The translations under genes and the position numbers were made by a program. Below are positions 2,015 to 23,971 of a DNA stretch of 33,225 nt, piece after piece (within the stretch, counting starts at the first letter, position 1; each line of letters begins with the position of its first letter). The notes beneath the pieces are model-generated. The model was not told the DNA's origin and made no database searches. It saw only the letters and a list, made by a program, of their open reading frames with translations. Source of the stretch: a bacterium (GTDB taxonomy: Bacteria; Patescibacteriota; Patescibacteriia; SG8-24); NCBI GenBank assembly GCA_023246195.1, contig JAHFIW010000015.1:1-33225 (forward strand), given 5' to 3'.

Positions 2015-2047
2015 AAAGCCCCTCCGGTTATCGGAAGGGCTTTTTTT
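2015..2047 (+). terminator. Terminator between convergent units
   Basis: AAAGCCC (2015-2021) pairs with GGGCTTT (2037-2043), and TCCG with CGGA inside, with one C-A mismatch, followed by a run of seven T (2041-2047). It ends the plus-strand unit. Read on the minus strand the hairpin is followed by only three T, so it may end the Ehr-like operon (stop at 2056) less efficiently. Confidence 0.85.
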
Positions 2048-2055
2048 ATCATCGA

Positions 2056-3609
2056 TTACATGTCCGTGCCGCTGTAGGACAGGTCCAGGCTTTTGTTGCA
2101 TAGCGGGAAGTCGGGAACGATGTTGCCAGGTCCGATTTCGCCGAACAGCGCCCAGTTGCAGAAGGACGGATCGCGCGGCATGCAGCGATCGATGCGTCCG
2201 CTCTTGATGCGCAGCGCGCACAGGATCTCACCGCGCCAGGATTCGACTGCTCCCAGGGCGATGCCGTCCTTTGCGTGGCATTCGGCACGGATCGGCCCGG
2301 CGGGCATGGTCGCAGTCAATTCGGCGATCAGCCGTGAGGAATCCTCGAGTTCGCGCACGCGCGCGATGAAGCGGGCGTAGACGTCACCGGACCGTTCCTC
2401 TACCAGGGTCGGTCGGAATGCGGCGTAGGCGGCGTAAGGGTGCGTGAGGCGTACGTCGCGGCCGATGCCGGAGGCGCGGGCAGGAAGGCCCTTCGCGCCG
2501 AGGGCGAGCGCGCCTTCCCTGGAAAGCACGCCGGTCGTCTCGAGGCGTTCGCGTTCACCGTCGGAAGAGAGGCACATGGCGAGGAATGACCGCATCTCCG
2601 CGTCGGCCTCCTTGATGACGAGCGCAATTTCCCTTAACGCCTCATCTTTCAGGTCAGCCGCCAGACCTCCCGGCACGATGGCTCCGCGCCAAAAGCGGTT
2701 GCCGAAGAGCTTGGCCGAAAGGCGCACCAGGCGTTCCTTGATGCGGAAGCCGTTGGCCGCCATCACGGTGTAGCCGGTGCCATTGCCGGCGATATTGGCC
2801 AGGTCATGCATGTGCATGCTGACACGTTCAAGTTCGCACAGCAGGCTGCGGGAAGCTTCGGCACGTTCGGGTACGCGACATCCGGCGATGGACTCGACCG
2901 CCTGGCAAAACGCAAGCGCGTTCGAGACGGACATGTCGCCGGACAAACGCTCGATGAACGGCAGGGCTTCGGTCGGCGTCTTGCCCTCGAGCAGCTTCTC
3001 GACGCCCTTGTGCGTGAAGAACAGCTTGCCTTCGAGGGTGATGATGCGCTCCCCTGCCACGTTGAATCGGAAATGGCCGGGCTCGATGACGCCGGCATGA
3101 ATGGGGCCGACGGGAATTTCGTAGACGCCTTCTCCTTCCACATGGTGCATGGGATACGGCACGTCGGCGTGAGCGAGCTTGGTATTCCAAGCGAAGTCCT
3201 TACGCAAAGGATGCGTGCCTTCCGGTACGTTTTCATGATGCACAAGCCGTCGCGGATCCGGATGGCCTTCGGCGACGATGCCGAACATGTCCATGGCGTA
3301 GCGTTCGTACCAGTGGGCAGCGACGACCTTGGCCGTCACTGAGGGATAACGCGGAGCGTCCTCGGGCAGCTTTGCGGAGAGCATCAGCCATCCGTGCGCC
3401 TCATCGAGCGCGAACGCGACGTGGACGCCGAAACTGCCGTCGGTCTCGCGGTCATCAGTGGCGTAGAGGAGGGACAGCGGCAGGCCATTTTCGGAGAGCA
3501 GCGCGCAGGCATCCGCCAACTTTTCCGGCGCGATTGCCGCCAGCGTCAAGCCGTTCCTGGTTTCGCCGACCTGACCTCCTGCCAGGTCGATGTAGTCGTG
3601 GGTGGTCAT
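2056..3609 (-). CDS. Ehr-type catalytic-subunit homologue (HyfG/HycE-like), NiFe ligands lost
   Basis: A 517-residue fusion of a NuoC-like domain (about 1-140) and a NuoD/NiFe large-subunit domain (about 155-517), the same architecture as HycE and HyfG. Landmarks: the NuoC segment HWYERYAMDMFG, IHAGVIEPGHFRF near 170, and VPERA at 246-250. In active group 4 NiFe hydrogenases the metal is held by ERICGIC and DPCxSC. Here these read ERLSGDM (S223, M226) and DLSYSGTDM (S511, G514), so all four ligands are gone although the surrounding alignment is good. The protein also ends at TDM, where HycE has a tail that is removed during maturation. It cannot bind a NiFe centre in the known way. This is the hallmark of energy-converting-hydrogenase-related (Ehr) complexes, whose function is unknown. 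Last gene of the operon, 3 bases after the HyfF-like gene. Confidence 0.88.
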   Translation of the reverse strand: MTTHDYIDLAGGQVGETRNGLTLAAIAPEKLADACALLSENGLPLSLLYATDDRETDGSFGVHVAFALDEAHGWLMLSAKLPEDAPRYPSVTAKVVAAHWYERYAMDMFGIVAEGHPDPRRLVHHENVPEGTHPLRKDFAWNTKLAHADVPYPMHHVEGEGVYEIPVGPIHAGVIEPGHFRFNVAGERIITLEGKLFFTHKGVEKLLEGKTPTEALPFIERLSGDMSVSNALAFCQAVESIAGCRVPERAEASRSLLCELERVSMHMHDLANIAGNGTGYTVMAANGFRIKERLVRLSAKLFGNRFWRGAIVPGGLAADLKDEALREIALVIKEADAEMRSFLAMCLSSDGERERLETTGVLSREGALALGAKGLPARASGIGRDVRLTHPYAAYAAFRPTLVEERSGDVYARFIARVRELEDSSRLIAELTATMPAGPIRAECHAKDGIALGAVESWRGEILCALRIKSGRIDRCMPRDPSFCNWALFGEIGPGNIVPDFPLCNKSLDLSYSGTDM

Positions 3610-3612
3610 AGG

Positions 3613-5085
3613 CTACCGGGTAAGGTTTCGGGACAGCGTCATGAAGAAGTCGCGGCCGGGGGCGTTCAGCAGTGCGAATCCGAGCGCGAAACACAGGATG
3701 ATGCCGATGAGCATGGCGACGTTCGCCAGGTTCCAACGTTCGCTGCCGGTAGCATGCGTCCGCGGTTCGGCCGTCTCTGACGAGAAAAGCATCTCGATCG
3801 CCGATCGCATCATGCCAAAGCCGATCATTACCAGCAGCGCTAGAATGATGACCGTGAGCAGCGGCTGGCGTGTCAGGCCGTACGACGTCATGATGTACTC
3901 GCTCATGAACAGGGCTGAAGGCGGTGCCGCGAGCAGTGCCAACAGGCCGATGAAGAACAGTACGCCGGTCTTCGGCCGACGTTCGACGACGCCTCGCACG
4001 TCGGCAATGCGCGTAGACCCGTACTCGTGCAGCATTTCGCCTGCGCCGACGAAGAGCGCCGGTTTGGCCAAGGCGTGTCCTGCCATGTGCATCATCGCCG
4101 CGAAGGTGCCCAACGGTCCGAGGCCGACCGCAAAAGCCATCAGTCCCATGTGTTCCACGGAAGAATAAGCCAGCATGCGCTTGTAGTTTTTCTGTACCAG
4201 CATGATGAACGACGGCAGCGCTACCGAAAGCGTGCCGAAAGTCAGGAAGAACGTATCGGTCCAGCCGGATGATCCCGAGGCGGCATCGACGATCAGCTTG
4301 GCGCGAAGCAGCACCGCAAAGGCGACGTTGAGGAGGATGCCGGAAAGCATCGCGGAAATCGGCGAAGGAGTCTTGCTGTGCGCGTCCGGAAGCCAGGTGT
4401 GCATCGGCACGAAGCCCACCTTGGTACCGACGCCGATGAACAGGAAGACGAATGCCCAACGCAGCGTGTCGAGCGACAGCGAGCCGGCGTATGCCGACAG
4501 CGACGACAGGGTGAGCGCGCCGGCACCAAGGTTCGCGCCGACGGCCGAATGGATGAGCATGAGCACGCCGAGCAGTCCGAGGGTGATGCCCGTGGAACAG
4601 ATGACGATGTATTTCCACGCGGCCTCCACTGCGCCGCGAGAACGGTCAAAAGCTACCAGCAGGGTGGTGGTCAGCGTCGTGGATTCGAGGGCGATCCAGA
4701 GCAGCGCCAAGTTGTCGGCGGCGACCGCCGTCCACATGGACAGTACGAACAGCATGAAGAACAGGATGAACGTCTTTTCGTTGGCCGGAGTGATAGTCCC
4801 CTTTTTTTGGCCGTGCGCCAGATAGTGGGTTGCGGCCAACGAGGCGAGCGCGGCGACGATCGCCACGAGACTGATCATGTAGGAGGCGAAGCGGTCGACC
4901 CGAACCGGTCCCCAGGCGGATGGCGTGCCGGAGAGCAATACGGGAACGGCGACGAACGCGGCGGCGGTGCACGAAAGCAGCGCGCCAAACAGGAAGTTGC
5001 GGCGGCGGGCGGCGCTGCTGATCGGCAGGAACGCCGCGGCGGCGGAAGCGAGGGCGAGGAAGAAAGGAAACAGTGGATGCGACAT
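3613..5085 (-). CDS. Antiporter-like membrane subunit (HyfF/NuoN-like)
   Basis: A 490-residue protein with about 13-14 hydrophobic helices, of the proton-conducting transporter (Mrp/NuoL/M/N) family. The two residues that define the channel are present: E134 in LLWIALESTT (helix 5) and K222 in GVGTKVGFVPMHTWLPDAH (helix 7). H229 in the same loop is also conserved. Where HyfB has a Lys in the next broken helix, this protein has Asn (SGILLN), which is usual for HyfF-type subunits. Expected to carry H+ or Na+ through the membrane arm. It starts 1 base downstream of the HyfE-like stop codon, so translation is probably coupled. Confidence 0.88.
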   Translation of the reverse strand: MSHPLFPFFLALASAAAAFLPISSAARRRNFLFGALLSCTAAAFVAVPVLLSGTPSAWGPVRVDRFASYMISLVAIVAALASLAATHYLAHGQKKGTITPANEKTFILFFMLFVLSMWTAVAADNLALLWIALESTTLTTTLLVAFDRSRGAVEAAWKYIVICSTGITLGLLGVLMLIHSAVGANLGAGALTLSSLSAYAGSLSLDTLRWAFVFLFIGVGTKVGFVPMHTWLPDAHSKTPSPISAMLSGILLNVAFAVLLRAKLIVDAASGSSGWTDTFFLTFGTLSVALPSFIMLVQKNYKRMLAYSSVEHMGLMAFAVGLGPLGTFAAMMHMAGHALAKPALFVGAGEMLHEYGSTRIADVRGVVERRPKTGVLFFIGLLALLAAPPSALFMSEYIMTSYGLTRQPLLTVIILALLVMIGFGMMRSAIEMLFSSETAEPRTHATGSERWNLANVAMLIGIILCFALGFALLNAPGRDFFMTLSRNLTR

Positions 5086-5086
5086 A

Positions 5087-5737
5087 TCAATCCGTAAGTT
5101 CGTTCAGGGCCTGCGTGTTTTCCGTGCCGTACAGCTCGCGGACGCGGCCGCTGACCGTGCCCATCAGCACGATGCCGAACGTCAGCGTCATGAGGATTCC
5201 CAGCTCGACCAAGAAGGGCAGGTCGCGGATGACGGCGAAGGAGAACGCGGCAATGCCGTTTTCCATCACCAGGAAGCCCATCACCTGCGAGAGCAGGTCG
5301 CGGCGCAGCACCATCATGGCCAAACCGATCATGACCATGGCGACGGCGACAAGCAGGAGGTATTCCGGATCCGCTCCGGCGGCGAAGGGAGAACGCAGCG
5401 CCATTGCCGTGACCACCGTGATGAGTACGGTGATGACGATGTAGGTGGGCGCCGGACGGAGCGTGGATGAAAGACGCATGGACATGCCTGCGCGATCAGC
5501 CGCGCGGGTGATGACTGCGGGGATGATGAGCGCCTTGAGGGCGATGGCGGTCGCCGCGAGCAGGTAGAGTTCCGGCGCATTGCGTTCGAAGGCCAGTCCT
5601 GCGACGAAGAGTCCGAGAAAGAGGGCCGAGGCCGCATAGGATCGCACGAGCGTGTGAAAACGCAGCGCCCCTGCCGCACGGATGGATGTTGCCAGCGTAG
5701 CGCCGGCCAGAATGGCGTTGATGAGCGTGATGTGCAT
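5087..5737 (-). CDS. HyfE-like membrane subunit (NuoK-related)
   Basis: A 216-residue protein with six or seven hydrophobic segments. The C-terminal part carries QVMGFLVMENGI with E159, matching the membrane glutamate of NuoK (E36 helix), and K68 sits in a helix (ALKALIIP). HyfE proteins supply the NuoK-like ion path linking the NuoH-like subunit to the antiporter subunits. Length matches E. coli HyfE (about 216). It lies between the HyfC-like and HyfF-like genes, as in hyf operons. No frame or length anomaly. Confidence 0.85.
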   Translation of the reverse strand: MHITLINAILAGATLATSIRAAGALRFHTLVRSYAASALFLGLFVAGLAFERNAPELYLLAATAIALKALIIPAVITRAADRAGMSMRLSSTLRPAPTYIVITVLITVVTAMALRSPFAAGADPEYLLLVAVAMVMIGLAMMVLRRDLLSQVMGFLVMENGIAAFSFAVIRDLPFLVELGILMTLTFGIVLMGTVSGRVRELYGTENTQALNELTD

Positions 5738-5743
5738 AAGGGT

Positions 5744-6676
5744 TCAGGCGAGCGCGAGTATCAGGCCGGCGAGAGCCGTCAGGAAGGCGATGGTCATGTA
5801 TTCCTGCATGCGATAAAACCGCATTTTTGCCATCGATGATTCCAGAAGCGCAAGCAGCCCCATCGCGGCGCAGAGCTTGAATACCGTGCTGGCGATGATC
5901 ATGAGCATTGCCGAAACTCCCGAATCGACTGTCATGAGCGGCATGGGAATGATGATGTTGGCGAACAGTATCGCGAACAGCGTGAGTTTGAGTGACGAGG
6001 CATACTCGAGCATGGCCAGATACGGACCGGAGTATTCCAGCACCATCGCCTCGTGCACCATGGTAAGTTCAAGATGCGTTGCCGGATTATCGACGGGATA
6101 CCGCGCGTTTTCGGACAGTGCCACGAAAACGAAAGCGATCAGGCTAAGCAGCAGGCCAGGATGCCGCAACAGTCCCATGCCGGTCACGGAAAGCATTTTG
6201 GCGACAGTGCCGCTGCCACTGGTCACGGCGAAAGCCGCGAAGACGGCGATGATCGACGGTTCCACCAGCGCGACCAGCGTCATTTCGCGGCTGGCACCCA
6301 TGCCACCGAAGGCGCTGCCCGGATCGAGTCCTCCGAGCACCAGGAATACCGCGCCGAGCGCGAGCAGTCCGGCGACTACGATAAAGTCGCCGCTCGCCGA
6401 AAGCGCTCCGTCAACGGAGGTCAACGGGAGAAGCAGCGCCACGAGCGCGGTGCTCGCCAGTACCGCGTACGGAGCCAGGCGAAACACCCACGAGACCGTT
6501 GGCGAAATGACCATTTCTTTCCTGAGGAGCGTGGCGTAAGTGACATACGGAAGAAGCGGCGACGCGCCGTGCCTGCCCTGCAATCGAGCCTTGCACCAGC
6601 GGACAAGTCCGGTAGCGAACGGGGCTAGAGCCAGGATGACCGCTCCCTGGATGACGGTGAGGAGGATGGGCGTCAT
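5744..6676 (-). CDS. NuoH-like membrane subunit (HyfC/HycD-like)
   Basis: A 310-residue protein with about eight membrane helices, related to NuoH. It keeps the charged loop and helix residues of the family: E131 in FGGMGASREM, E139 in ALVEP, E189 in SENARYPVDNP, and E203, E209 and E214 in HLELTMVHEAMVLEYSG. These line the funnel that links the peripheral arm to ion transfer. I chose the ATG at 6676 because it overlaps the upstream stop as ATGA; an in-frame ATG at 6688 would add four residues (MHRH). The loops that contact the redox subunits look intact even though those subunits have lost their cofactors. Confidence 0.87.
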   Translation of the reverse strand: MTPILLTVIQGAVILALAPFATGLVRWCKARLQGRHGASPLLPYVTYATLLRKEMVISPTVSWVFRLAPYAVLASTALVALLLPLTSVDGALSASGDFIVVAGLLALGAVFLVLGGLDPGSAFGGMGASREMTLVALVEPSIIAVFAAFAVTSGSGTVAKMLSVTGMGLLRHPGLLLSLIAFVFVALSENARYPVDNPATHLELTMVHEAMVLEYSGPYLAMLEYASSLKLTLFAILFANIIIPMPLMTVDSGVSAMLMIIASTVFKLCAAMGLLALLESSMAKMRFYRMQEYMTIAFLTALAGLILALA

Positions 6677-8670
6677 ATGGCGATGCACAGCGTTGCGGCA
6701 AGCGCGACGAGGATGAACAGGAGATAGAGCTGGATCGACCCGCTTTGGACGCGGCGGGCCCAGTTGCCCAAACCGTGAAACCCGCGCGAGATCGGTTCGT
6801 GCACGTGCGATTCCCAGAATGAGCGGCCGGTGAGCAGCATTTCGCGCTTCAGCAAAAAGGAATTTCCCTTAGTCGTAGGAATGGTCACGACGGTCTTGCG
6901 GACGCCGACGAGGTTACGGAAAAAGAAACGGATGGGCGCGCTGAAGGCCGTAGCCGTGTATTCCATGTGCGCGTTGATCGGCTGTCCGCAGTTCCACGTT
7001 TGGTAGACGCGTTCCTTGGACGGCCGCGAGAGGAACCGTTTGGCAATGAGGCTGAGAAGCAGCGTGCCAAAGACGGCCAGAGCGAGGACCAGCGGCGAGA
7101 GGGACGTTCCCCTGCCAGTGACGATGGTTTCGGAAGACATCGTGCCGTTCATGATGAGGCTTCCCAGTCCGAGTACGCCGAGGATTTGCGAGGCGAACGC
7201 TCCGGTGAGCGCAGCCAACGCGGCGAGGACGATGACCGGCAGCCGAATCGCGTCGTTCGGCTCATGGGCGGCTTCCGCTGCGGCCGAGCGTGACGCGCCC
7301 AACTGCGAAATGGAGAACAGCTTGACCATGGCAAAGACCGCGATGCCGGCAGTAAAGGCGGTGCCGACGAGGGCGAGTACGAGAACTGCCTGCGTCGCCG
7401 GCGCGATGCCGTGCAACGATGCCACGAGCCCGGAAAGATACATCCATTCGCCGATGAAGCCGGCAAATGGCGGCAGTGCGGCTCCTGCGAGCGCCAAAAC
7501 GAGGAATGCGCCGGAGAAGGTCGGCATGCGCTTTGCGAGGCCTCCCATGCGCTCAAGGCTGCGCGTATGCACGGCGTGCGCGATGGCGCCAGCGCTCAAG
7601 AACAGGCCGGACTTGAAGATGGCGTGCGCGATGCAGTGAAATAGCGCTGCGGCAAAGGCCACGGCAGCGAGAGCATGGAGTCCTTGTCCTCGCGCATACA
7701 GGCTGGTGCCAAGCATGAGGAAAATCAATCCGAGGTTTTCCACGCTGCTCCAGGCCAAGGTGCGCTTGATGTCAGTATCAACGGCGGCATGAAGCGCGCC
7801 GAAGACCGCGGAAATCAGGCCAATGCCCATGACCGTAAGCGCTGCGGCGGCAGGAAGCGACGGGATGATGAGAAAAGCGCACAGGATGAAACCGTAGACG
7901 GCCACCTTGAGCATGACGCCGGACATGAGCGCACTCACGTGGCTCGGCGCCTGCGGATGCGCTTCGGGCAACCAGGTGTGGAGCGGCACGAGACCGGCCT
8001 TGGACCCGAAGCCGACGAAGAAGAATGCGAACGCGAGTGTCGCCTCGCGCAGGGGCATGGTGCGGGCATTGGCGGCCAGGGCGGCGAAGTCAGCCAGCGG
8101 GTTGCCGGCGGCAAGCAGCAGGAATCCTGCCATGAGCGAGAGCGCGCCAAGGTGCGCCATGACGAAGTAGAGCATGGCTGCCTTGCGCGAGGCCGTGCTG
8201 CGGTCCGCCATTACCAGCGTAAAAGACGATAGGGACATGATTTCCCATGACACCATGAATCCCAGTGCCGAGGTTGCCAGAAGCGTGGCCTGCATGCCGA
8301 AGATGAACAGCGCGGTGACGCCATGCAGGCTCGGTACATCGTAGGCGTCGCGATTCTCGTCGACATAACGCATGGCATAGATGGCCGCGATGCAGGCCAC
8401 CAGGTTCACCACGACGAAGAACGGCGCCGCCAGGGGGGTCAGTCGGAAGGTGACGCCAAAGGAGGCGATGACTGGAAGCAGCGGGACAGCCCCCGTCTTC
8501 AGCGTCATGGAGGCCATGGCGGAAAGTGCCCCGATCCCCGTACCTATGACGAGGAAACCGTTGGAGAGGCGCCTCAAAAGGCCCTTTCGAAGGAGGAAGG
8601 CCAAGGGAAAAGCGATGAACGTGGCGACAAGACAGGCGGTCAGCCCCGCCTGGATCAAGGAAAGTTGCAT
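6673..8670 (-). CDS. Antiporter-like membrane subunit (HyfB/NuoL-like)
   Basis: A 665-residue protein with about 15-16 membrane helices, second Mrp/NuoL-type subunit of the complex. Channel residues are present: E143 in VSWEIMSLSS, K224 in GSKAGLVPLHTWLPEAH, H231 and K255 in SGVMLK. The C-terminal part has the HyfB signature TWNCGQP followed by YTATAFSAPIRFFF and a final helix. With the HyfF-like gene this gives two antiporter modules, as in hydrogenase-4. Stop and next start overlap by 4 bases. It starts 3 bases after the small-subunit stop. Confidence 0.88.
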   Translation of the reverse strand: MQLSLIQAGLTACLVATFIAFPLAFLLRKGLLRRLSNGFLVIGTGIGALSAMASMTLKTGAVPLLPVIASFGVTFRLTPLAAPFFVVVNLVACIAAIYAMRYVDENRDAYDVPSLHGVTALFIFGMQATLLATSALGFMVSWEIMSLSSFTLVMADRSTASRKAAMLYFVMAHLGALSLMAGFLLLAAGNPLADFAALAANARTMPLREATLAFAFFFVGFGSKAGLVPLHTWLPEAHPQAPSHVSALMSGVMLKVAVYGFILCAFLIIPSLPAAAALTVMGIGLISAVFGALHAAVDTDIKRTLAWSSVENLGLIFLMLGTSLYARGQGLHALAAVAFAAALFHCIAHAIFKSGLFLSAGAIAHAVHTRSLERMGGLAKRMPTFSGAFLVLALAGAALPPFAGFIGEWMYLSGLVASLHGIAPATQAVLVLALVGTAFTAGIAVFAMVKLFSISQLGASRSAAAEAAHEPNDAIRLPVIVLAALAALTGAFASQILGVLGLGSLIMNGTMSSETIVTGRGTSLSPLVLALAVFGTLLLSLIAKRFLSRPSKERVYQTWNCGQPINAHMEYTATAFSAPIRFFFRNLVGVRKTVVTIPTTKGNSFLLKREMLLTGRSFWESHVHEPISRGFHGLGNWARRVQSGSIQLYLLFILVALAATLCIAI

Positions 8671-8673
8671 ACG

Positions 8674-9222
8674 TCAGAATCGTTTGGAGCCGGCTGCCTC
8701 GCGTATGGCGTGAAGGACGCCACGAAGAATGTCGGTCGGAGATGGGGGGTCTCCTGGAATCTTTATGTGGACCGGAATGACTGATTCGACCGGTCCGACG
8801 ACGGCGTAGGAATCCTTCCAGATGCCGCCGGTACAGGCGCCGTCTCCTACCGCCACGACGATGCACGGATGCGGCGCGGCCTCGTAGGTGGTTTTGACCG
8901 CGCGTTCCAAGTTGCGCGTCACCGGTCCGGTGACGAAGAGCATGTCGGCATGCCGAGGAGAGGCCACGAACGACAGGCCAAAGCGATCGATGTCGTAGTA
9001 GGCGTTGCCAATGGCGGTCAGTTCGATTTCTTCGGCATTGGTGGAGCCTCCGTCGACGGCACGTATGCGCAATGAGCGCCCTCCGTAGAGTTTCTTGACC
9101 GTCTCGCCGAGCTCCTTGCCCACGTTTTCAAATTCGGCGTCTCTCGCGGAGAGGAAGGCGCTGGCCGGTTCAGTGACTCTCGGACCAAAAAAAAGTTCCC
9201 CCCACAGCTTCGTCAGGTACAT
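8674..9222 (-). CDS. Small-subunit homologue (HyfI/HycG/NuoB-like), Fe-S ligands lost
   Basis: A 182-residue protein that aligns by eye with HycG, HyfI and NuoB over residues 50-170. In this family four cysteines bind the proximal [4Fe-4S] cluster (N2 in complex I). Here the canonical GSCNGCxIE reads GSTNAEEIE (T61 and E64 for the two Cys), the GDC position reads GDG (G128), and GCPP reads GDPP (D158). All four are lost while the flanking residues remain. C130, two residues after the third position, and C120 are the only nearby cysteines and cannot replace the set. The fold is probably kept as a scaffold joining the large subunit to the membrane arm. First gene of the operon. Confidence 0.87.
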   Translation of the reverse strand: MYLTKLWGELFFGPRVTEPASAFLSARDAEFENVGKELGETVKKLYGGRSLRIRAVDGGSTNAEEIELTAIGNAYYDIDRFGLSFVASPRHADMLFVTGPVTRNLERAVKTTYEAAPHPCIVVAVGDGACTGGIWKDSYAVVGPVESVIPVHIKIPGDPPSPTDILRGVLHAIREAAGSKRF

Positions 9223-9304: not shown

Positions 9305-9332
9305 AAAAAGCGCCCCTTGCAGGACGCTTTTT
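9305..9332 (-). terminator. Terminator of the ATP synthase operon
   Basis: AAAAAGCG and CGCTTTTT pair perfectly (9305-9312 with 9325-9332), extended on the minus-strand RNA by GU, GC, GC and GU pairs to a 4-base loop. It lies just past the atpC stop (9346), so it separates the ATP synthase and Ehr-like operons, although read-through is possible. Confidence 0.8.
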
Positions 9333-9345
9333 CCTTTGCGGGTGT

Positions 9346-9783
9346 CTAGCCTGACGGCAGGTGCCGGTTTTTGCCGAAGTGCTTGCGGGCCACGCGGGCG
9401 CGCGCCAATTCGCGTTCCAGCGCGGCTATGGCGCTTGCGGCGGAAACATCGTCGTTGCTGCGTTTTTCGGCCAGGACTTTCTCGGCACGTTCGCGGGCGG
9501 CCTCGACCTTTTCGAGATCGAGTTCTTCTGCGCGCTCGGCAGTGTCGGCCAAGATGATGATCTTGGAGCCGGGTTGCACCTCGACGAACCCGCCGGAGAC
9601 GGCCAGGTAGGATTCCTCCCTGCCCTTGCGGAGGGTGATCATGCCGGGAACCAAGTTAGCCACCAGCGGCAGGTGTCCGGGCAATACCGTAATCTCCCCT
9701 TCCTGGGTAGGAACGGTCGCGGCATCGTATTCTTCCTTGAGGACGATGCGCTCGGGAGTGGTGAGTTCGAAGTGGAGTGACAT
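9346..9783 (-). CDS. atpC: ATP synthase epsilon subunit
   Basis: A 145-residue F1 epsilon subunit. The N-terminal beta-sandwich is clear (FELTTPERIVLKEEYDAATVPT, GEITVLPGHLPLV), followed by a charged C-terminal helical hairpin from about residue 90. It belongs to the central stalk and can inhibit ATP hydrolysis. It follows atpD by 1 base and is the last gene of the operon. Length is typical (about 130-145). Confidence 0.96.
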   Translation of the reverse strand: MSLHFELTTPERIVLKEEYDAATVPTQEGEITVLPGHLPLVANLVPGMITLRKGREESYLAVSGGFVEVQPGSKIIILADTAERAEELDLEKVEAARERAEKVLAEKRSNDDVSAASAIAALERELARARVARKHFGKNRHLPSG

Positions 9784-9784
9784 A

Positions 9785-12087
<2,303 letters not shown>

Positions 12088-12099
12088 ACCCCTAAGTCA

Positions 12100-13605
12100 T
12101 CAACCGTTAATCTTCTTGTACTCGGCAACCGCCTCTTCGATTCGCATCTTAGTGTCATCCGACAAGTCCGTCTCTTTTTCGATGGTATCGACGATGTCGC
12201 GGCGGGTCTTGCCGAGGTAGTCGCGGAAGCCGGCTTCGAAGGCGCTGATCTTCTCTACGGCGACGTCGTCAAGCTTTCCGGCGATGAGCGCGTAAAGGAT
12301 GGTGGTCTGCGAAGCGAGCGACAACGGCGCATACTGGCCCTGCTTGAGCAGTTCGGCAGCACGGCGGCCGCGCTCGATCTGCTTGCGAGTGGTCTCGTCG
12401 AGGTCGGAGGCGAACTGGGCGAAGGCCTCGAGTTCGCGGAACTGGGCCATTTCGAGACGCAGCTTGCCTGCCACGCGCTTCATGGCCTTGGTCTGCGCGG
12501 ACGAACCGACGCGCGACACCGAGATGCCGACGTTGACTGCCGGGCGGACGCCCTTGTTGAAGAGGTCGCCTTCAAGGAAAATCTGGCCGTCGGTAATGGA
12601 AATGACGTTGGTGGGAATGTAGGCGGAGACGTCACCGGACTGCGTCTCGATGATTGGCAGCGAGGTGATGGAGCCTCCCCCGTTCTCCTTGTTGAGACGG
12701 GCGGAGCGTTCAAGCAAACGGGAGTGCAGGTAAAAGACGTCGCCGGGGTAGGCTTCGCGACCCGGCGGGCGGCGAAGCAGCAACGAGACTTCGCGGTAGG
12801 CCCAAGCGTGCTTGGAAAGGTCGTCGTACACGACGAGCACGTCCTCGCCCTTGGCCATGAAGTACTCGGCAATGGCCGTGCCGGAGTACGGAGCCAAGTA
12901 AGTCATCGAGGCGGGATCAGAAGCGCCCGCCATGACGATGACGGTGTGCTCCATTGCGCCAGCAGCTTCGAGACGGCCGAGAATCTGAGCGATCTTGGAC
13001 TCCTTTTGACCGATGGCCACGTAAACGCACTTCACGCCCTTGCCTTTCTGGTTGATGATGGTGTCGATGGCGATGGTGGTCTTGCCGGTCTGGCGGTCGC
13101 CGATGATGAGCTCGCGCTGGCCCTTGCCGATCGGGATCATCGAATCGATGGCCTTGATGCCGGTCATCAGCGGCTGATTGACGCCCTGGCGGGTAATGAC
13201 GCCAGGTGCGACCCTGTCGACCGGCATCACGGTCTTGTCACCGCCGATTTCGCCCTTGCCGTCGAGCGCCTCGCCAAGCGGGCTGACGACGCGTCCGATG
13301 ATCTTTTCTGAAACCGGAATCGAAAGCACTCGGCCGGTGGACTTCACCTGGTCGCCTGCCTTGATGTGCGTGTAATCGCCGAGCAGCATCGCGCCGACGG
13401 ATTGCTCTTCGAGGTTGAGGATTACGCCAACGGTGCCGCCGGGAAATTCAAGCATTTCCGCGGTCAATGCGTCGGTCAGTCCGGACATGCGGGCGATGCC
13501 GTCGGCAATCTCCACGATGGTACCGGTCTTGTCGGCCGCGGCGCCGGTGCCGAGGTGCTGGATTTCTTGTTTCAGCGCTTCGATGATGGATGATTTTGAG
13601 GCCAT
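12100..13605 (-). CDS. atpA: ATP synthase alpha subunit
   Basis: A 501-residue non-catalytic nucleotide-binding subunit of F1. Walker A is GDRQTGKT at 169-176, and the arginine-finger region [15 protein letters not shown] is present. Length is normal. It follows atpH by 10 bases. The minus-strand bases before its ATG read TTTCCTCCTGATC, the opposite of a Shine-Dalgarno, so initiation must rely on coupling to atpH or another route. Confidence 0.98.
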
Positions 13606-13615
13606 AAGGATATGA

Positions 13616-14023
13616 TCAGGAGGAAACGGTGCGAGTCAGGACGTTCTTCAGGTCGTCGAGCGTGTGGCGAACGGTGGCATCGATGACGCGGTCCTCGGTG
13701 CGGATACGGATGCCGCCGACCAGGTCGGGCACCACCTTGCGAACCACTTCGCGGCCCTTGGAGGAGATGCCTGCCGCGGCCAGCGCTTCGGCTTCACGCG
13801 CGTCGTCAATCGGCGAGGCCGTCTCTACCGTGATGCGCGTGCGGCTGTCGATGTCCTCCATGACTTCGGGCAGCGAGGCTAGCGCGTCATGCAGCATCGA
13901 CTCGAGTCCGTGCCGCCCGATGACGGCCACGAAGTTGGCTATCAGCGGCTTCAGCTCGTCTGCCGTGGCATTTTTGGTTGCCAGGTAGAGGGCGCGTGCA
14001 AGTTCTTTAGGGGAAGTTTTCAT
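13616..14023 (-). CDS. atpH: ATP synthase delta subunit (short)
   Basis: A 135-residue delta (OSCP-like) subunit by position and by its C-terminal half ([30 protein letters not shown]), which matches the conserved end of the family. The usual length is about 175-180 residues, so the N-terminal helical domain that binds alpha is shortened. Short delta subunits occur in reduced bacteria. The frame is intact. It joins F1 to the b-subunit stalk. Confidence 0.9.
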
Positions 14024-14047
14024 ACGACTAAGTTGATTTCCACCGCC

Positions 14048-14593
14048 TTATGCGGCTCCTTCCGCGCTCGCGACGTCCTTAATGGCCTTGGCAATGAGTC
14101 CGGCGTCGATGCTGGCGTCAATCTTGCCCTTGAGCACCTTTTCTGCGGCCATGGCCACTAACGTGCCGACCTCGGCTTTTGCTTCGGCCATCATCTTGTC
14201 TTTTTCCGCGCGAATCTGTTCGCGGCCCTGGTCAACGACTTTTTGCACCTCAGCTCTGGTGCGAGCGGCCGCTTCGACCCGCTCCTTCTCTGCCAGGATG
14301 GTGGCAGCATCCATGATCTCTTTGGCGCTCTTGCGAGCCTCGGTCACGATGTTGGCACGATCAGCCTCGGCCAACGTGCGGGATTGCGACGAGGCCAGCG
14401 CGTCCTTGATCCCCTGTTCTATCTTGGCTGCGCGATCGTCCATGATCTTGAGCAGCGGCTTGTAGGCGAACTTCCAGAGCACCAGCAAGATCAGGCCGAA
14501 GTTGACCAGCTGCGCGACGAACAGTTTCCAGTTGATGCCGAGCGTGCCGAGCACGTCGGTCGATGCGGCGACTTGTTGAACTTCGGTGACCAT
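14048..14593 (-). CDS. atpF: ATP synthase b subunit
   Basis: A 181-residue peripheral stalk subunit. One membrane helix at about 22-44 (WKLFVAQLVNFGLILLVLWK) is followed by a long charged coiled coil (about 50-165) rich in Ala, Glu, Lys and Arg. It has about 20 residues before the membrane helix, somewhat more than E. coli b. It lies 25 bases before atpH and 103 bases after atpE. No Shine-Dalgarno is visible. Confidence 0.95.
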   Translation of the reverse strand: MVTEVQQVAASTDVLGTLGINWKLFVAQLVNFGLILLVLWKFAYKPLLKIMDDRAAKIEQGIKDALASSQSRTLAEADRANIVTEARKSAKEIMDAATILAEKERVEAAARTRAEVQKVVDQGREQIRAEKDKMMAEAKAEVGTLVAMAAEKVLKGKIDASIDAGLIAKAIKDVASAEGAA

Positions 14594-14645
14594 AGCGGGA
14601 GATGCAAAGGGTGAAATGCGAAGCGTGGAGATCGGAGAGGAAAGC

Positions 14646-14672
14646 TGGAGCGCAGTTGTCGACGACGCTCCA
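14646..14672 (-). other. Hairpin in the atpE-atpF gap
   Basis: TGGAGCG (14646-14652) and CGCTCCA (14666-14672) form a 7-bp stem with a 13-base loop in the 103-base gap after atpE. No T run follows, so it is not a plain terminator. A stem here could protect the 3' end of an atpE-containing fragment or lower atpF expression relative to the c subunit. Confidence 0.45.
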
Positions 14673-14696
14673 ACCTTCTTACTCCGAACTTCACTC

Positions 14697-14915
14697 TTAC
14701 AGGGTGAAGACGACGACGAGCGAGTAAATGGCGATGGCTTCAGCGAAGGCGGCGCCGAGCAGCATCGGAACGAACAGCTTGCCGGTCGATTCCGGATTGC
14801 GGCCGATCGACTCCATGGCCTTAGCGACGATTTGACCGATGGCCAAGGCCGGGGTCATGCCGCCGATCGCCATGGTGAGACCTTTGGTAAGGATCTTGAT
14901 TGCTTCCGGGCTCAT
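14697..14915 (-). CDS. atpE: ATP synthase c subunit
   Basis: A 72-residue hairpin of two membrane helices that forms the rotor ring. The ion-binding carboxylate is E59 in AAFAEAIAIYSLV, and the polar loop is ESIGRNPE (35-42). The sodium-type set (a Gln in helix 1 and Glu-Ser/Thr in helix 2) is not present: helix 2 reads AEAIA, and the Gln at 28 is one turn off the sodium position. Proton coupling is predicted. The helix 1 glycine repeat is partly replaced (MTPALAIG). Gaps of 139 and 103 bases with hairpins flank this gene, unlike the rest of the operon. Confidence 0.95.
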   Translation of the reverse strand: MSPEAIKILTKGLTMAIGGMTPALAIGQIVAKAMESIGRNPESTGKLFVPMLLGAAFAEAIAIYSLVVVFTL

Positions 14916-22250: not shown

Positions 22251-22272
22251 AGAGCCTCTGAGGCTCTTTTTT
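22251..22272 (+). terminator. Second terminator-like hairpin
   Basis: AGAGCCT (22251-22257) and AGGCTCT (22261-22267) form a 7-bp stem with CTG loop, followed by T residues to 22272. It backs up the previous terminator on the plus strand and touches the tatD stop codon. Confidence 0.65.
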
Positions 22273-23132
22273 CATATCCGAAAAAGCGCCTTCACGTTTT
22301 GCAGGGTCTGCCGCTCCACCTCTTCGACGCTGACGTGTTTGATTCCGGCGATGAAGGCGGCCACGTGCTTCACGAAGGACGGTTCATTGCGTCGGCCGCG
22401 GTGCGGCAGCGGCGCCAGGTAGGGCGCGTCGGTCTCGATCAGCATGCGATCGAGCGGCACTTGGCGGGCCACGTCGGCCAGCGTCTCCTTGCCTTGACCG
22501 AGGTCGGATTTGCGCGGAGGAAAAGTGATGATGCCGGTGAAGGAAACATAGAAGCCGAGCGCCAGATAGCGCTGCGCTTCGGCCCAGGTGCCGGTGAAGC
22601 AGTGCACGTTGCCGCGAATCGGCCTGCCTGCTTCGCGGTATTCCTCGAGCATGCGCAGGACTTCGTCGTGCGCTTCGCGGCAATGGATCATCACCGGAAG
22701 GTCGAGTTCGCGTGCCAGATCGAGCTGTCCGCGAAAGGCAGCGCGTTGCGCCTCTTTTATGGCTTCGTGGTCGCCGCCTTCGGGCAAGCGGTAATAGTCC
22801 AGGCCGCACTCGCCGATGCCGACTACTTTAGCCGACCTCCTGGCCAATGCGCGGTAGGCGGCGATGTCGAACTTTTCCGGAGTACTGACGTCGGCCATCT
22901 CGCTGTCATCGACGTATGACGAAAAGACGTGCGTCGGGTGCAGTCCCACCAAGGCCCAAATGCCGTCGTGCTTGTCGGCGCAGGCGACGGCTTCGAGGCT
23001 GGTCTCCATCCGCGTGCCGACCGCGAGCATGCCCGTTCCCTCTTCCAGAGAACGGCGAATCACCGCGTCCTCGTCATCACGAAAGGCGCGGAAACTGACG
23101 TGGCTGTGGGCATCGATGCGTTGCAGGTTCAT
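22272..23132 (-). CDS. TatD family metal-dependent hydrolase (second copy)
   Basis: A 286-residue TIM-barrel amidohydrolase-type nuclease. Metal-site motifs: DAHSHV at the start, GIGECGLDYY, MIHCREAHDE, HCFTGTW, and ETDAPYLAP near the end. TatD proteins are 3'-5' DNA or RNA exonucleases, or deacylases of misacylated tRNA in other members. The ATG at 23132 overlaps the stop of the first TatD gene as ATGA; a longer open frame to 23444 only shadows that gene. Last gene of the thiI-rsmI-metG-cvpA-tatD-tatD operon. Confidence 0.92.
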   Translation of the reverse strand: MNLQRIDAHSHVSFRAFRDDEDAVIRRSLEEGTGMLAVGTRMETSLEAVACADKHDGIWALVGLHPTHVFSSYVDDSEMADVSTPEKFDIAAYRALARRSAKVVGIGECGLDYYRLPEGGDHEAIKEAQRAAFRGQLDLARELDLPVMIHCREAHDEVLRMLEEYREAGRPIRGNVHCFTGTWAEAQRYLALGFYVSFTGIITFPPRKSDLGQGKETLADVARQVPLDRMLIETDAPYLAPLPHRGRRNEPSFVKHVAAFIAGIKHVSVEEVERQTLQNVKALFRI

Positions 23133-23971
23133 TGCGGGCGCGGAATGCGAGCGAACACCTTGAGCGCGTTGGCGGTGGTCTCGGTGGAAATTTGCGCGGA
23201 AGTGACTCCTCGGATGGCGGCGACGGCCTCGGCCACCAATGGCAGGTAGCTGGGCTCGTTGCGACGATGGCTCCAGGGCACCGGCGTCATGAACGGGCAG
23301 TCGCTCTCGATGACCAGCCGGCTCGAGGGCGATTTTTTCATGATCTCGGTTTGGTATGCGCCATGCGTAAGGATGCCAGTGACGGAAATCATGAAATCCA
23401 GATCGAAGTAGCGCCGGGCGGTCTTCCAGTTGCCGGAAAAGCAATGGATGATGCCGCGCGACTCAAAGCCTCGGGTGGTCTTGTCCCAGGTCTCGAGCAT
23501 CTCGAGCATTTCCTCGTGCGCGTCACGGCAATGGAGCAGCAGCGGAAGACCGTGCTCGCGGGCAAGGTCGAGGAAACGACCGAAGACTTTCTTTTGGTTG
23601 ATGCGGATGCGGTCAGCCAGTTCGCGCTCGGCATCGTCGCGGGTATACGTCGGGAGATCGTGAAAATCCAATCCGGTTTCGCCGAGCGCGACCACTTTGG
23701 GATGCGTGAGCAATTCGGAAAAGCCGCCGATGTTCACCAGCTGGTCTTCGGCAAGCAGGTCCCCGCCGATTTTCGCCGGATGCATTCCCACTGCGGCAAA
23801 AACGCCATCGGGATAGCGTTCGGCTATCTCGACGGCGCGGCGTGACGATTCCAAGTCGCTGCCGAGCGTGACGATGGCGACGCCTTCGTCACGGGCGTGA
23901 CGTACGACGATATCGAGATCGCGCTCGTAAATCGGAGAATCAAGATGGCAATGAGTGTCGATGAAACGCAT
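23129..23971 (-). CDS. TatD family metal-dependent hydrolase (first copy)
   Basis: A 280-residue TatD family protein with DTHCHLD at residues 5-11, ALGETGLDFHD, LLLHCRDAHEE, IIHCFSGNW and VIESDCPFMTPV. It shares the whole framework and the C-terminal RRNEPS motif with the next gene but differs widely elsewhere, so the duplication is old. It has a TPVPWSHRRNEPS segment and a shorter loop before ESDCPF than its neighbour. It starts 6 bases after cvpA. metG next to tatD is a common arrangement. Confidence 0.93.
   Translation of the reverse strand: MRFIDTHCHLDSPIYERDLDIVVRHARDEGVAIVTLGSDLESSRRAVEIAERYPDGVFAAVGMHPAKIGGDLLAEDQLVNIGGFSELLTHPKVVALGETGLDFHDLPTYTRDDAERELADRIRINQKKVFGRFLDLAREHGLPLLLHCRDAHEEMLEMLETWDKTTRGFESRGIIHCFSGNWKTARRYFDLDFMISVTGILTHGAYQTEIMKKSPSSRLVIESDCPFMTPVPWSHRRNEPSYLPLVAEAVAAIRGVTSAQISTETTANALKVFARIPRPQ

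Follow-up and report, generated by a model that had tools for sequence, protein, structure and literature searches.

Six intact reading frames in the window (the whole stretch of 33,225 nucleotides analysed here) form an operon that runs from position 9222 to position 2056 of the minus strand, in the order small subunit, HyfB-like, HyfC-like, HyfE-like, HyfF-like and large subunit (Table 1). Genes of an F1Fo ATP synthase, the names of which we in part presume, precede the operon. Past its other end, one gene intervenes and then, at a distance of 872 bp from where the large-subunit frame stops, comes a convergent gene that encodes a carbonic-anhydrase-type protein, here named CA1. The arrangement of ATP synthase followed by small–B–C–E–F–large recurs at many loci of Uhrbacteria and Moranbacteria. 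Elsewhere in the window (22272–23971, minus strand) lie two neighbouring frames, both of which we take to resemble TatD-type hydrolases. The genome that contains the window (G000; 1.17 Mb in 47 contigs, 98% complete) has a single copy of the large subunit. Across an even sample of the phylum, a large-subunit match was found in 16 of 379 genomes, three of which (G015, G039 and G057) keep the cysteines discussed below.

Table 1 Genes and other features of the locus, with the evidence for each
Feature	Position	Strand	Evidence or remark
CA1, CsoSCA-like carbonic-anhydrase-type protein	51–1190	plus	profile, fold model, invariant residues
Uncharacterised 230-aa protein between CA1 and operon	1308–2000	plus	no Pfam family match
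Terminator-like hairpin between convergent genes	2015–2043		
Large subunit, NuoC-NuoD/HycE-like	2056–3609	minus	frame, Pfam, structure-sequence alignment, 57 relatives
HyfF-like antiporter-type membrane subunit	3613–5085	minus	E134, K222, K341, H337 conserved; TM8 Lys replaced by N253
HyfE/NuoK-like membrane subunit	5087–5737	minus	E159 conserved
HyfC/HycD/NuoH-like membrane subunit	5744–6688	minus	R134, E135, E143, E193, D200, E207, E213, E218 conserved
HyfB/NuoL-like antiporter-type membrane subunit	6673–8670	minus	E143, K224, K255, H231, K353, H349 conserved
Small subunit, NuoB/HycG/MbhJ-like, first gene of operon	8674–9222	minus	Pfam, MbhJ/HycG alignment
Terminator-like hairpin, A/T-rich arms, between ATP synthase epsilon and small subunit	9305–9332		
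F1Fo ATP synthase genes epsilon, beta, gamma, alpha, delta, b, c	9346–14915	minus	upstream of operon; outside complex

The large-subunit gene, for which the initial annotation named no strand, starts with ATG and encodes 517 amino acids. Its domain matches (Pfam Complex1_30kDa at residues 26–142, E = 1.5e-22; Complex1_49kDa at 279–443, E = 5e-38) are those of a NuoC+NuoD-type fusion protein of the hydrogenase-4 kind; a match to NiFeSe_Hases (E = 1.3e-5) lies under the cut-off of that family. The top solved relative is formate hydrogenlyase subunit 5 of E. coli, HycE (7z0s_E; E = 3.2e-62, aligned over 39–516). The initial annotation had proposed that the flanks of both metal motifs align with HycE and that Ser223, Met226, Ser511 and Gly514 occupy the four NiFe ligand positions. 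Both proposals are borne out: DRVCGICGF of HycE aligns with ERLSGDMSV, and SLDPCYSCTD with SLDLSYSGTD, so that the four cysteines become S223, M226, S511 and G514, and the same four are replaced relative to Pyrococcus MbhL (6cfw_L; E = 7.3e-36). Other cysteines at the ligand positions, named beforehand as the result that would speak against this assignment, were found neither in the HycE and MbhL alignments nor among 57 relatives.

These 57 aligned large subunits comprise 54 of a cysteine-less type and 3 of a Cys type (L075–L077). Position 223 is Ser in 51, Cys in 4 and Ala in 2; position 226 is Met in 34, Ala in 7, Ser in 7, Thr in 6 and Cys in 3; position 511 is Ser in 51, Cys in 3 and Gly in 1, with 2 gaps; and position 514 is Gly in 51, Cys in 3 and Ala in 1, with 2 gaps. 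The fourth Cys at position 223 belongs to L048 and the others to the Cys type; members of the cysteine-less type thus carry at most one of the four ligand cysteines, and that only in L048. The expectation that Ser, Met, Ser and Gly are conserved among relatives therefore holds for S223, S511 and G514 (51 of 57 each) and fails for Met226 (34 of 57). An adjoining residue, D225, is Asp in 53 of the 57. Conservation of Ser-x-x-(Met/Ala/Ser/Thr) and Ser-x-x-Gly across relatives indicates that the replacements are not chance decay. HypD (PF01924) has no match in the window genome; it is absent from 12 of the 13 genomes with the Ehr-type (energy-converting-hydrogenase-related) complex, G087 being the one that has it, and present in all 3 Cys-type genomes. 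Given the absence of the NiFe ligands and of HypD, we reject an active hydrogenase.

The same redox-dead large subunit occurs at three loci from metagenome-assembled genomes named as Acidobacteria or Acidobacteriota (L043, L044 and L047), accompanied in L043 and L047 by most or all of the operon. The genes that flank L043 are presumably non-CPR, one of them LmbE-like. These loci suggest transfer beyond the CPR or mis-binning.

Replacement extends to the small subunit. Alignment to MbhJ (E = 2.5e-28) and HycG (E = 4.2e-24) places T61, E64, G128 and D158 at all four positions of the FeS-cluster cysteines: CNGC reads TNAE, the third Cys is Gly and PGCPP reads PGDPP. Across 50 aligned small subunits, T61 is found in 39, E64 in 43, G128 in 42 and D158 in 43. 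Cys occupies the first, third and fourth of these positions only in L061, and the second in L061 and five members of a distant clade (L066, L067 and L069–L071); 49 of the 50 are thus devoid of FeS cysteines, bar that one Cys in the five distant-clade members. L061, from a non-CPR Nitrospirae metagenome-assembled genome, combines an Ehr-type large subunit (SGVSS, LSYSG) with all four FeS cysteines, so the losses of the NiFe and FeS ligands are separate steps; as read from these alignments, the window lineage has undergone both. The small subunit of L072 (7659–8402; genome G177) is diverged and its cluster ligands are lost (GDNSAE, GTDA, GNPP).

Placement with the Ehr group, as the initial annotation had it, agrees with the definition given in passages of PMC6349859, namely a large subunit without Ni/Fe-coordinating residues together with Mrp/Hyf-type membrane subunits. 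The plainer reading of the complex as simply an Ehr does not stand: because L061 keeps all four FeS cysteines and the window does not, the window complex is a redox-free variant, a distinction that is drawn from L061 and not from the published definition. The initial annotation did not touch on the lost small-subunit ligands, the lack of an electron-input subunit, the conserved ion path or the carbonic anhydrases at the operon.

The membrane arm, in contrast, is preserved. Conserved charged residues in its four subunits align with those of the membrane subunits of formate hydrogenlyase and MBH. Among 52 HyfB sequences, E143, K224, H231, K353 and H349 are each present in 51, and K255 in 49; among 53 HyfF sequences, E134 is present in 52, K222 in 51, and K341 and H337 in all 53. 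HyfF position 253 is Asn in 50 of 53, in place of the TM8 Lys. In HyfC, R134, E143, E193, D200, E207 and E213 are found in 51 of 51 sequences, E135 in 50 and E218 in 49, and E159 of HyfE is found in 47 of 48. We take it as established for complex I that these residues form the ion path. A frozen ion path and a deleted electron path point best to an ion translocator that works without redox chemistry, and we hold with high confidence that the complex is one. On its sequence, it belongs to the complex I/Ehr superfamily as a redox-free member that is not decaying, and it would move H+ (or Na+/H+) without electrons.

Neighbour families were found by clustering the genes around 44 loci from named records together with phylum-sample loci, and four kinds of carbonic-anhydrase-type protein were recognized among them. 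CA1 is represented by the window copy and at nine of the 44 loci. C67, D69, R71, H127 and C137 (C-x-D-G-R ... H ... C) are invariant in 10 of 10 aligned copies and supply the predicted Cys/His/Cys zinc ligands and the Asp–Arg dyad of CsoSCA-type beta-carbonic anhydrases. The copy at L056 matches the Pfam catalytic domain of carboxysome shell carbonic anhydrase (31.6 bits, against a cut-off of 21.5) and, under the model cut-off, TIGR02701 (E = 7.2e-10); the window copy alone has no Pfam match at E ≤ 0.1. A profile of the family matches the carboxysome shell carbonic anhydrase 2fgy (E = 2.5e-11) with all five residues aligned, and the five best Foldseek matches of a structure model of the window copy (mean pLDDT 82.7) are CsoSCA structures (E = 2.4e-15 to 2.7e-13).

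The second family, CA2 (ten of 44 loci), has invariant C42, H117 and C120 and a nearly invariant D44. It has no convincing sequence match in Pfam or the PDB; the best fold matches of its model (pLDDT 86.7) are beta-carbonic anhydrases at a modest E = 2.5e-3, and we regard it as a putative new beta-type protein, similar by predicted fold. CA3 (five of 44 loci) matches Pro_CA_2 (E = 1.3e-16 and 1.9e-12 in the two copies scanned). A gamma-type protein at L025, L038 and L058 matches the CcmM model (E = 1.2e-49 to 9.8e-43) and the Cam-type carbonic anhydrase model (E = 2.7e-40 to 3.5e-35), in both cases under the full-length cut-off.

Several further genes were seen at these loci. A TAT-type protein downstream of L042 and a 238-aa protein beside the small subunit of L067 (4631–5344, minus strand) were not confirmed as carbonic anhydrases in family scans and are not counted; the L067 protein has no NCBIfam match and carries CIDGK and HKKC motifs (CxD..HxxC) reminiscent of beta-carbonic anhydrases. 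At L040 (11605–12147), a CA2-type gene is split into two frames (an assembly error or a broken gene). L022, L023 and L055, which have CA2 upstream of the operon, carry another, degenerate CA2-like gene past the large subunit, with weak matches to the CA2 profile in L023 and L055. At L095 (6911–8821), CA1 has a CA3-like gene as its immediate neighbour, and the pair comes straight after ATP synthase epsilon. Genome G177 also carries an ordinary Pro_CA.

At least one of the four kinds (CsoSCA-like, Pro_CA_2, the new beta type or the CcmM/Cam-like gamma type) adjoins the operon at 25 of the 44 loci. They lie either upstream of the small subunit, mostly where the ATP synthase also is, or past the large subunit, at the end of the operon that faces away from the ATP synthase. 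Among the 39 loci whose flanks extend 1 kb or more in each direction, such a neighbour is recognized in 23 and none in 16, which leaves an obligatory subunit of all such complexes unsupported. Over 51 loci, the 98 kb of DNA that lie no more than 1.1 kb from the operon hold 30 matches to the carbonic anhydrase profiles and the other 426 kb hold 0, a contrast that is partly circular because the CA1 and CA2 profiles were seeded from neighbours.

Surveys of whole genomes set bounds on the association. Six complex-bearing genomes (G256, G189, G156, G309, G277 and G087) have no CA1, CA2, Pro_CA or Pro_CA_2 match genome-wide, an absence that covers the beta types searched. CA1 occurs in 13 sample genomes, 2 with the complex and 11 without. 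The p value of 0.0016 for co-occurrence of CA1 or CA2 with the complex comes from 4 genomes; because three of them, G000, G305 and G056, supplied seed sequences, the test is not independent. Pfam searches, which are unseeded by neighbours, gave no positive association in the 379 genomes: Pro_CA_2 is found in 50, with no overlap with the 13 genomes that have the Ehr-type complex, and CsoSCA_cat in 4, with G234 the only one of these to carry the complex as well. Given CA1 outside complex-bearing genomes and complexes in genomes without a match to the beta types searched, carbonic anhydrase is often a partner in one branch but is not obligatory for the family.

The clearest evidence is independent of the neighbour-seeded profiles and comes from closely related loci. 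L030 and L035 are 92.4% identical in a stretch of 3,258 bp that spans HyfF and the large subunit, and 89.2% identical in 4,887 bp beyond the adjoining slot; the slot itself (around 1.1–1.3 kb) is unaligned except for 130 bp at its edge, and holds CA3 (Pro_CA_2) in L030 and CA1 (CsoSCA-like) in L035. L037 (CA1) and L038 (gamma) differ at the slot in the same way, and the same slot is occupied by the gamma type in L025, CA3 in L026 and CA1 in L045. The types are also interspersed on a tree of the large subunit, a quick tree with long branches that we used only for this purpose. Unrelated enzymes of one activity that swap in one slot look like the outcome of selection for that activity at that place. 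The neighbours suggest that the complex pumps ions in connection with the chemistry of carbon dioxide, not with hydrogen, and we think it probable that in the Uhrbacteria/Moranbacteria branch the translocator works with carbonic anhydrase.

How the two might work together can be sketched. A carbonic anhydrase physically associated with the complex would form HCO3− and H+ from CO2; the proton would enter the acid-lined former metal pocket, at the conserved D225 of the large subunit and E64 and D158 of the small subunit, and pass from there to the carboxylates of HyfC; and flux through HyfB and HyfF, driven by a gradient, would trap bicarbonate inside the cell. The neighbouring ATP synthase could build that gradient from fermentation ATP. 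Cells that host CPR Ehr-type complexes are held to be simple fermenters. We infer the physical association, the direction, the ion and the substrate, as well as the steps from CO2 through the proton relay to the membrane arm. Gradient-driven vectorial CO2 hydration by a redox-free complex and a carbonic anhydrase, as in DAB, is the mechanism that we favour, with somewhat less than an even chance. Counting against it are the 16 well-flanked loci with no recognized carbonic anhydrase, the six complex-bearing genomes without one of the beta types searched and, in the window, the convergent orientation of CA1 and the gene that separates it from the operon. More tentatively still, the locus could represent a new class of vectorial carbonic anhydrase on a full complex I/hydrogenase-4 scaffold, in which the metal-free redox arm acts as a proton relay, exchangeable carbonic anhydrases of the four kinds plug in, and CO2 capture is powered by an ion gradient, or ion flow by CO2 chemistry, with no electrons involved.

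The strongest competitor, which we judge unlikely but which has appreciable weight, shares the redox-free translocator and drops the mechanical coupling to its partner. The complex would be an Mrp-like cation/proton antiporter or a gated proton path for pH and sodium balance, with the soluble arm as a structural lid and with carbonic anhydrase as a physiological partner, mechanically uncoupled, that supplies H+ and HCO3− for pH control. In its favour, the redox arm is dead and the ion path intact; proteins of the MbhH/Mrp type are close relatives of the membrane subunits; and the complex persists in genomes without a recognizable carbonic anhydrase. On its own, however, it accounts neither for unrelated carbonic anhydrases that refill the adjacent slot nor for a retained soluble arm with conserved new polar residues.

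The carbonic anhydrases could instead be housekeeping genes that share an energy-metabolism locus with the ATP synthase and the complex, with no functional link between them. CA1 directly follows ATP synthase epsilon at L095 and lies beside the atp operon at L099, and in neither genome did the phylum-sample survey find an Ehr-type complex; most loci with an upstream CA2 or CA1 have it between epsilon and the small subunit; and carbonic anhydrases are scarce in these genomes, so a single one would be essential. Against this, they also stand on the far side of the operon (in the window and in Moranbacteria) and next to operons whose examined flanks contain no ATP synthase (L045, L049, L057, L058, L060 and L066), and the slot has been refilled by four unrelated families. 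We therefore consider coincidental sharing of the locus improbable, and prefer a functional link.

A hidden redox enzyme, in which another cofactor or partner feeds electrons to the remodelled pocket, is more doubtful again. Coupling to formate dehydrogenase has been proposed for Ehr complexes in passages of PMC6349859 and PMC7894505, G000 has one small ferredoxin on a different contig, and in G177 the small subunit is extended at its N-terminus by a ferredoxin-like segment (CSFCGECAFKC). Yet all eight cysteine ligands are replaced in the window, and our reading of its frames gave no HyfH/NuoI gene within the operon and no formate dehydrogenase gene in the operon or the window. The NuoI model has no match at its cut-off in any of the 16 genomes, and no ferredoxin-like match at E ≤ 1e-3 in 9 of the 13 with the Ehr type. 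With no such genes in the operon and few ferredoxin-like matches, an Ehr driven by ferredoxin or formate dehydrogenase is disfavoured, and a redox role of any kind is very unlikely.

That every catalytic ligand is lost could mark a hydrogenase on its way out, but six intact frames, kept synteny, a near-invariant ion path and replacements conserved over dozens of diverse genomes rule out a pseudogene, largely refute decay, which we consider extremely improbable, and uphold the view of the initial annotation that the frame is intact and the protein is not decaying.

Absence of the NiFe cysteines from CPR Ehr large subunits is already published: Jaffe et al. 2020, in passages of PMC7304191, describe a monophyletic CPR Ehr clade without metal-binding Cys that ‘likely cannot interact with H2’. 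The window shares with that clade, so far as those passages describe it, a Group 4-type large subunit without NiFe Cys, hydrogenase-4-type membrane subunits and CPR hosts, and differs in also lacking all four small-subunit FeS ligands and in having carbonic anhydrases at the locus; the term ‘carbonic anhydrase’ occurs 0 times in the main text of PMC7304191. Passages of PMC10284858, PMC6349859 and PMC7894505 give the function of Ehr complexes elsewhere as unknown or tied to formate dehydrogenase. Within the open-access literature, subscription papers and preprints being outside our scope, we found neither a link between Ehr and carbonic anhydrase nor a loss of FeS ligands from an Ehr small subunit. 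Group 4 [NiFe] hydrogenases and formate hydrogenlyase (HycE/HycG, Hyf) have the same subunit set and folds as the window complex, which, unlike them, has no NiFe site, proximal cluster, ferredoxin subunit or HypD. Complex I (NDH-1) has the N2 cluster and NuoI, neither of which was encountered in the window complex.

Two known systems join complex I-type subunits to CO2 hydration. According to passages of PMC13144422, DAB2 places a beta-carbonic-anhydrase-like protein on a NuoL-like subunit and is proposed to hydrate CO2 by means of the proton motive force, without electrons. DAB/DAC and the window locus alike pair a two-domain beta-carbonic-anhydrase-type protein with NuoL-type proton subunits, in the window by gene position. 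The window differs in having a full complex I-type scaffold with NuoH-, NuoK- and NuoB/CD-like parts, and in that CA1 is CsoSCA-like and not DabA (UPF0753): two CA1 relatives scanned at E ≤ 10 gave CsoSCA and Pro_CA models, with no DabA model among the matches listed. DabB2 is reported to be without the antiporter ion-pair motifs, whereas HyfB and HyfF keep them here, which counts against the parallel. In cyanobacterial NDH-1MS with CupA/CupS, a complex I-type machine is likewise joined to CO2 hydration, and passages of PMC6981117 propose that redox-driven pumping removes the protons that hydration releases. That system is driven by ferredoxin/plastoquinone redox chemistry, whereas the window complex is without redox centres and linked by gene position; no CupA was noticed among the neighbour genes read. 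CA1 resembles CsoSCA (2fgy, 8thm) in sequence profile, fold and zinc-ligand pattern, and differs in adjoining an ion-translocating operon, with no carboxysome gene seen in the window.

Complex I and its kin are redox-driven pumps, and how their chemistry is coupled to ion movement in the antiporter-type subunits is still debated. A natural and widely conserved member from which all redox centres have been deleted, and in which the membrane carboxylates and lysines are kept, would mean that the coupling machinery can run on a non-electron input, and thereby offers a way into that debate. If the link to carbonic anhydrase is true, this would be a third case, independent of NDH-1MS and DAB, in which complex I-type subunits have been joined to CO2 hydration, and would give the CPR Ehr clade, which has been without a function, a concrete and testable role.
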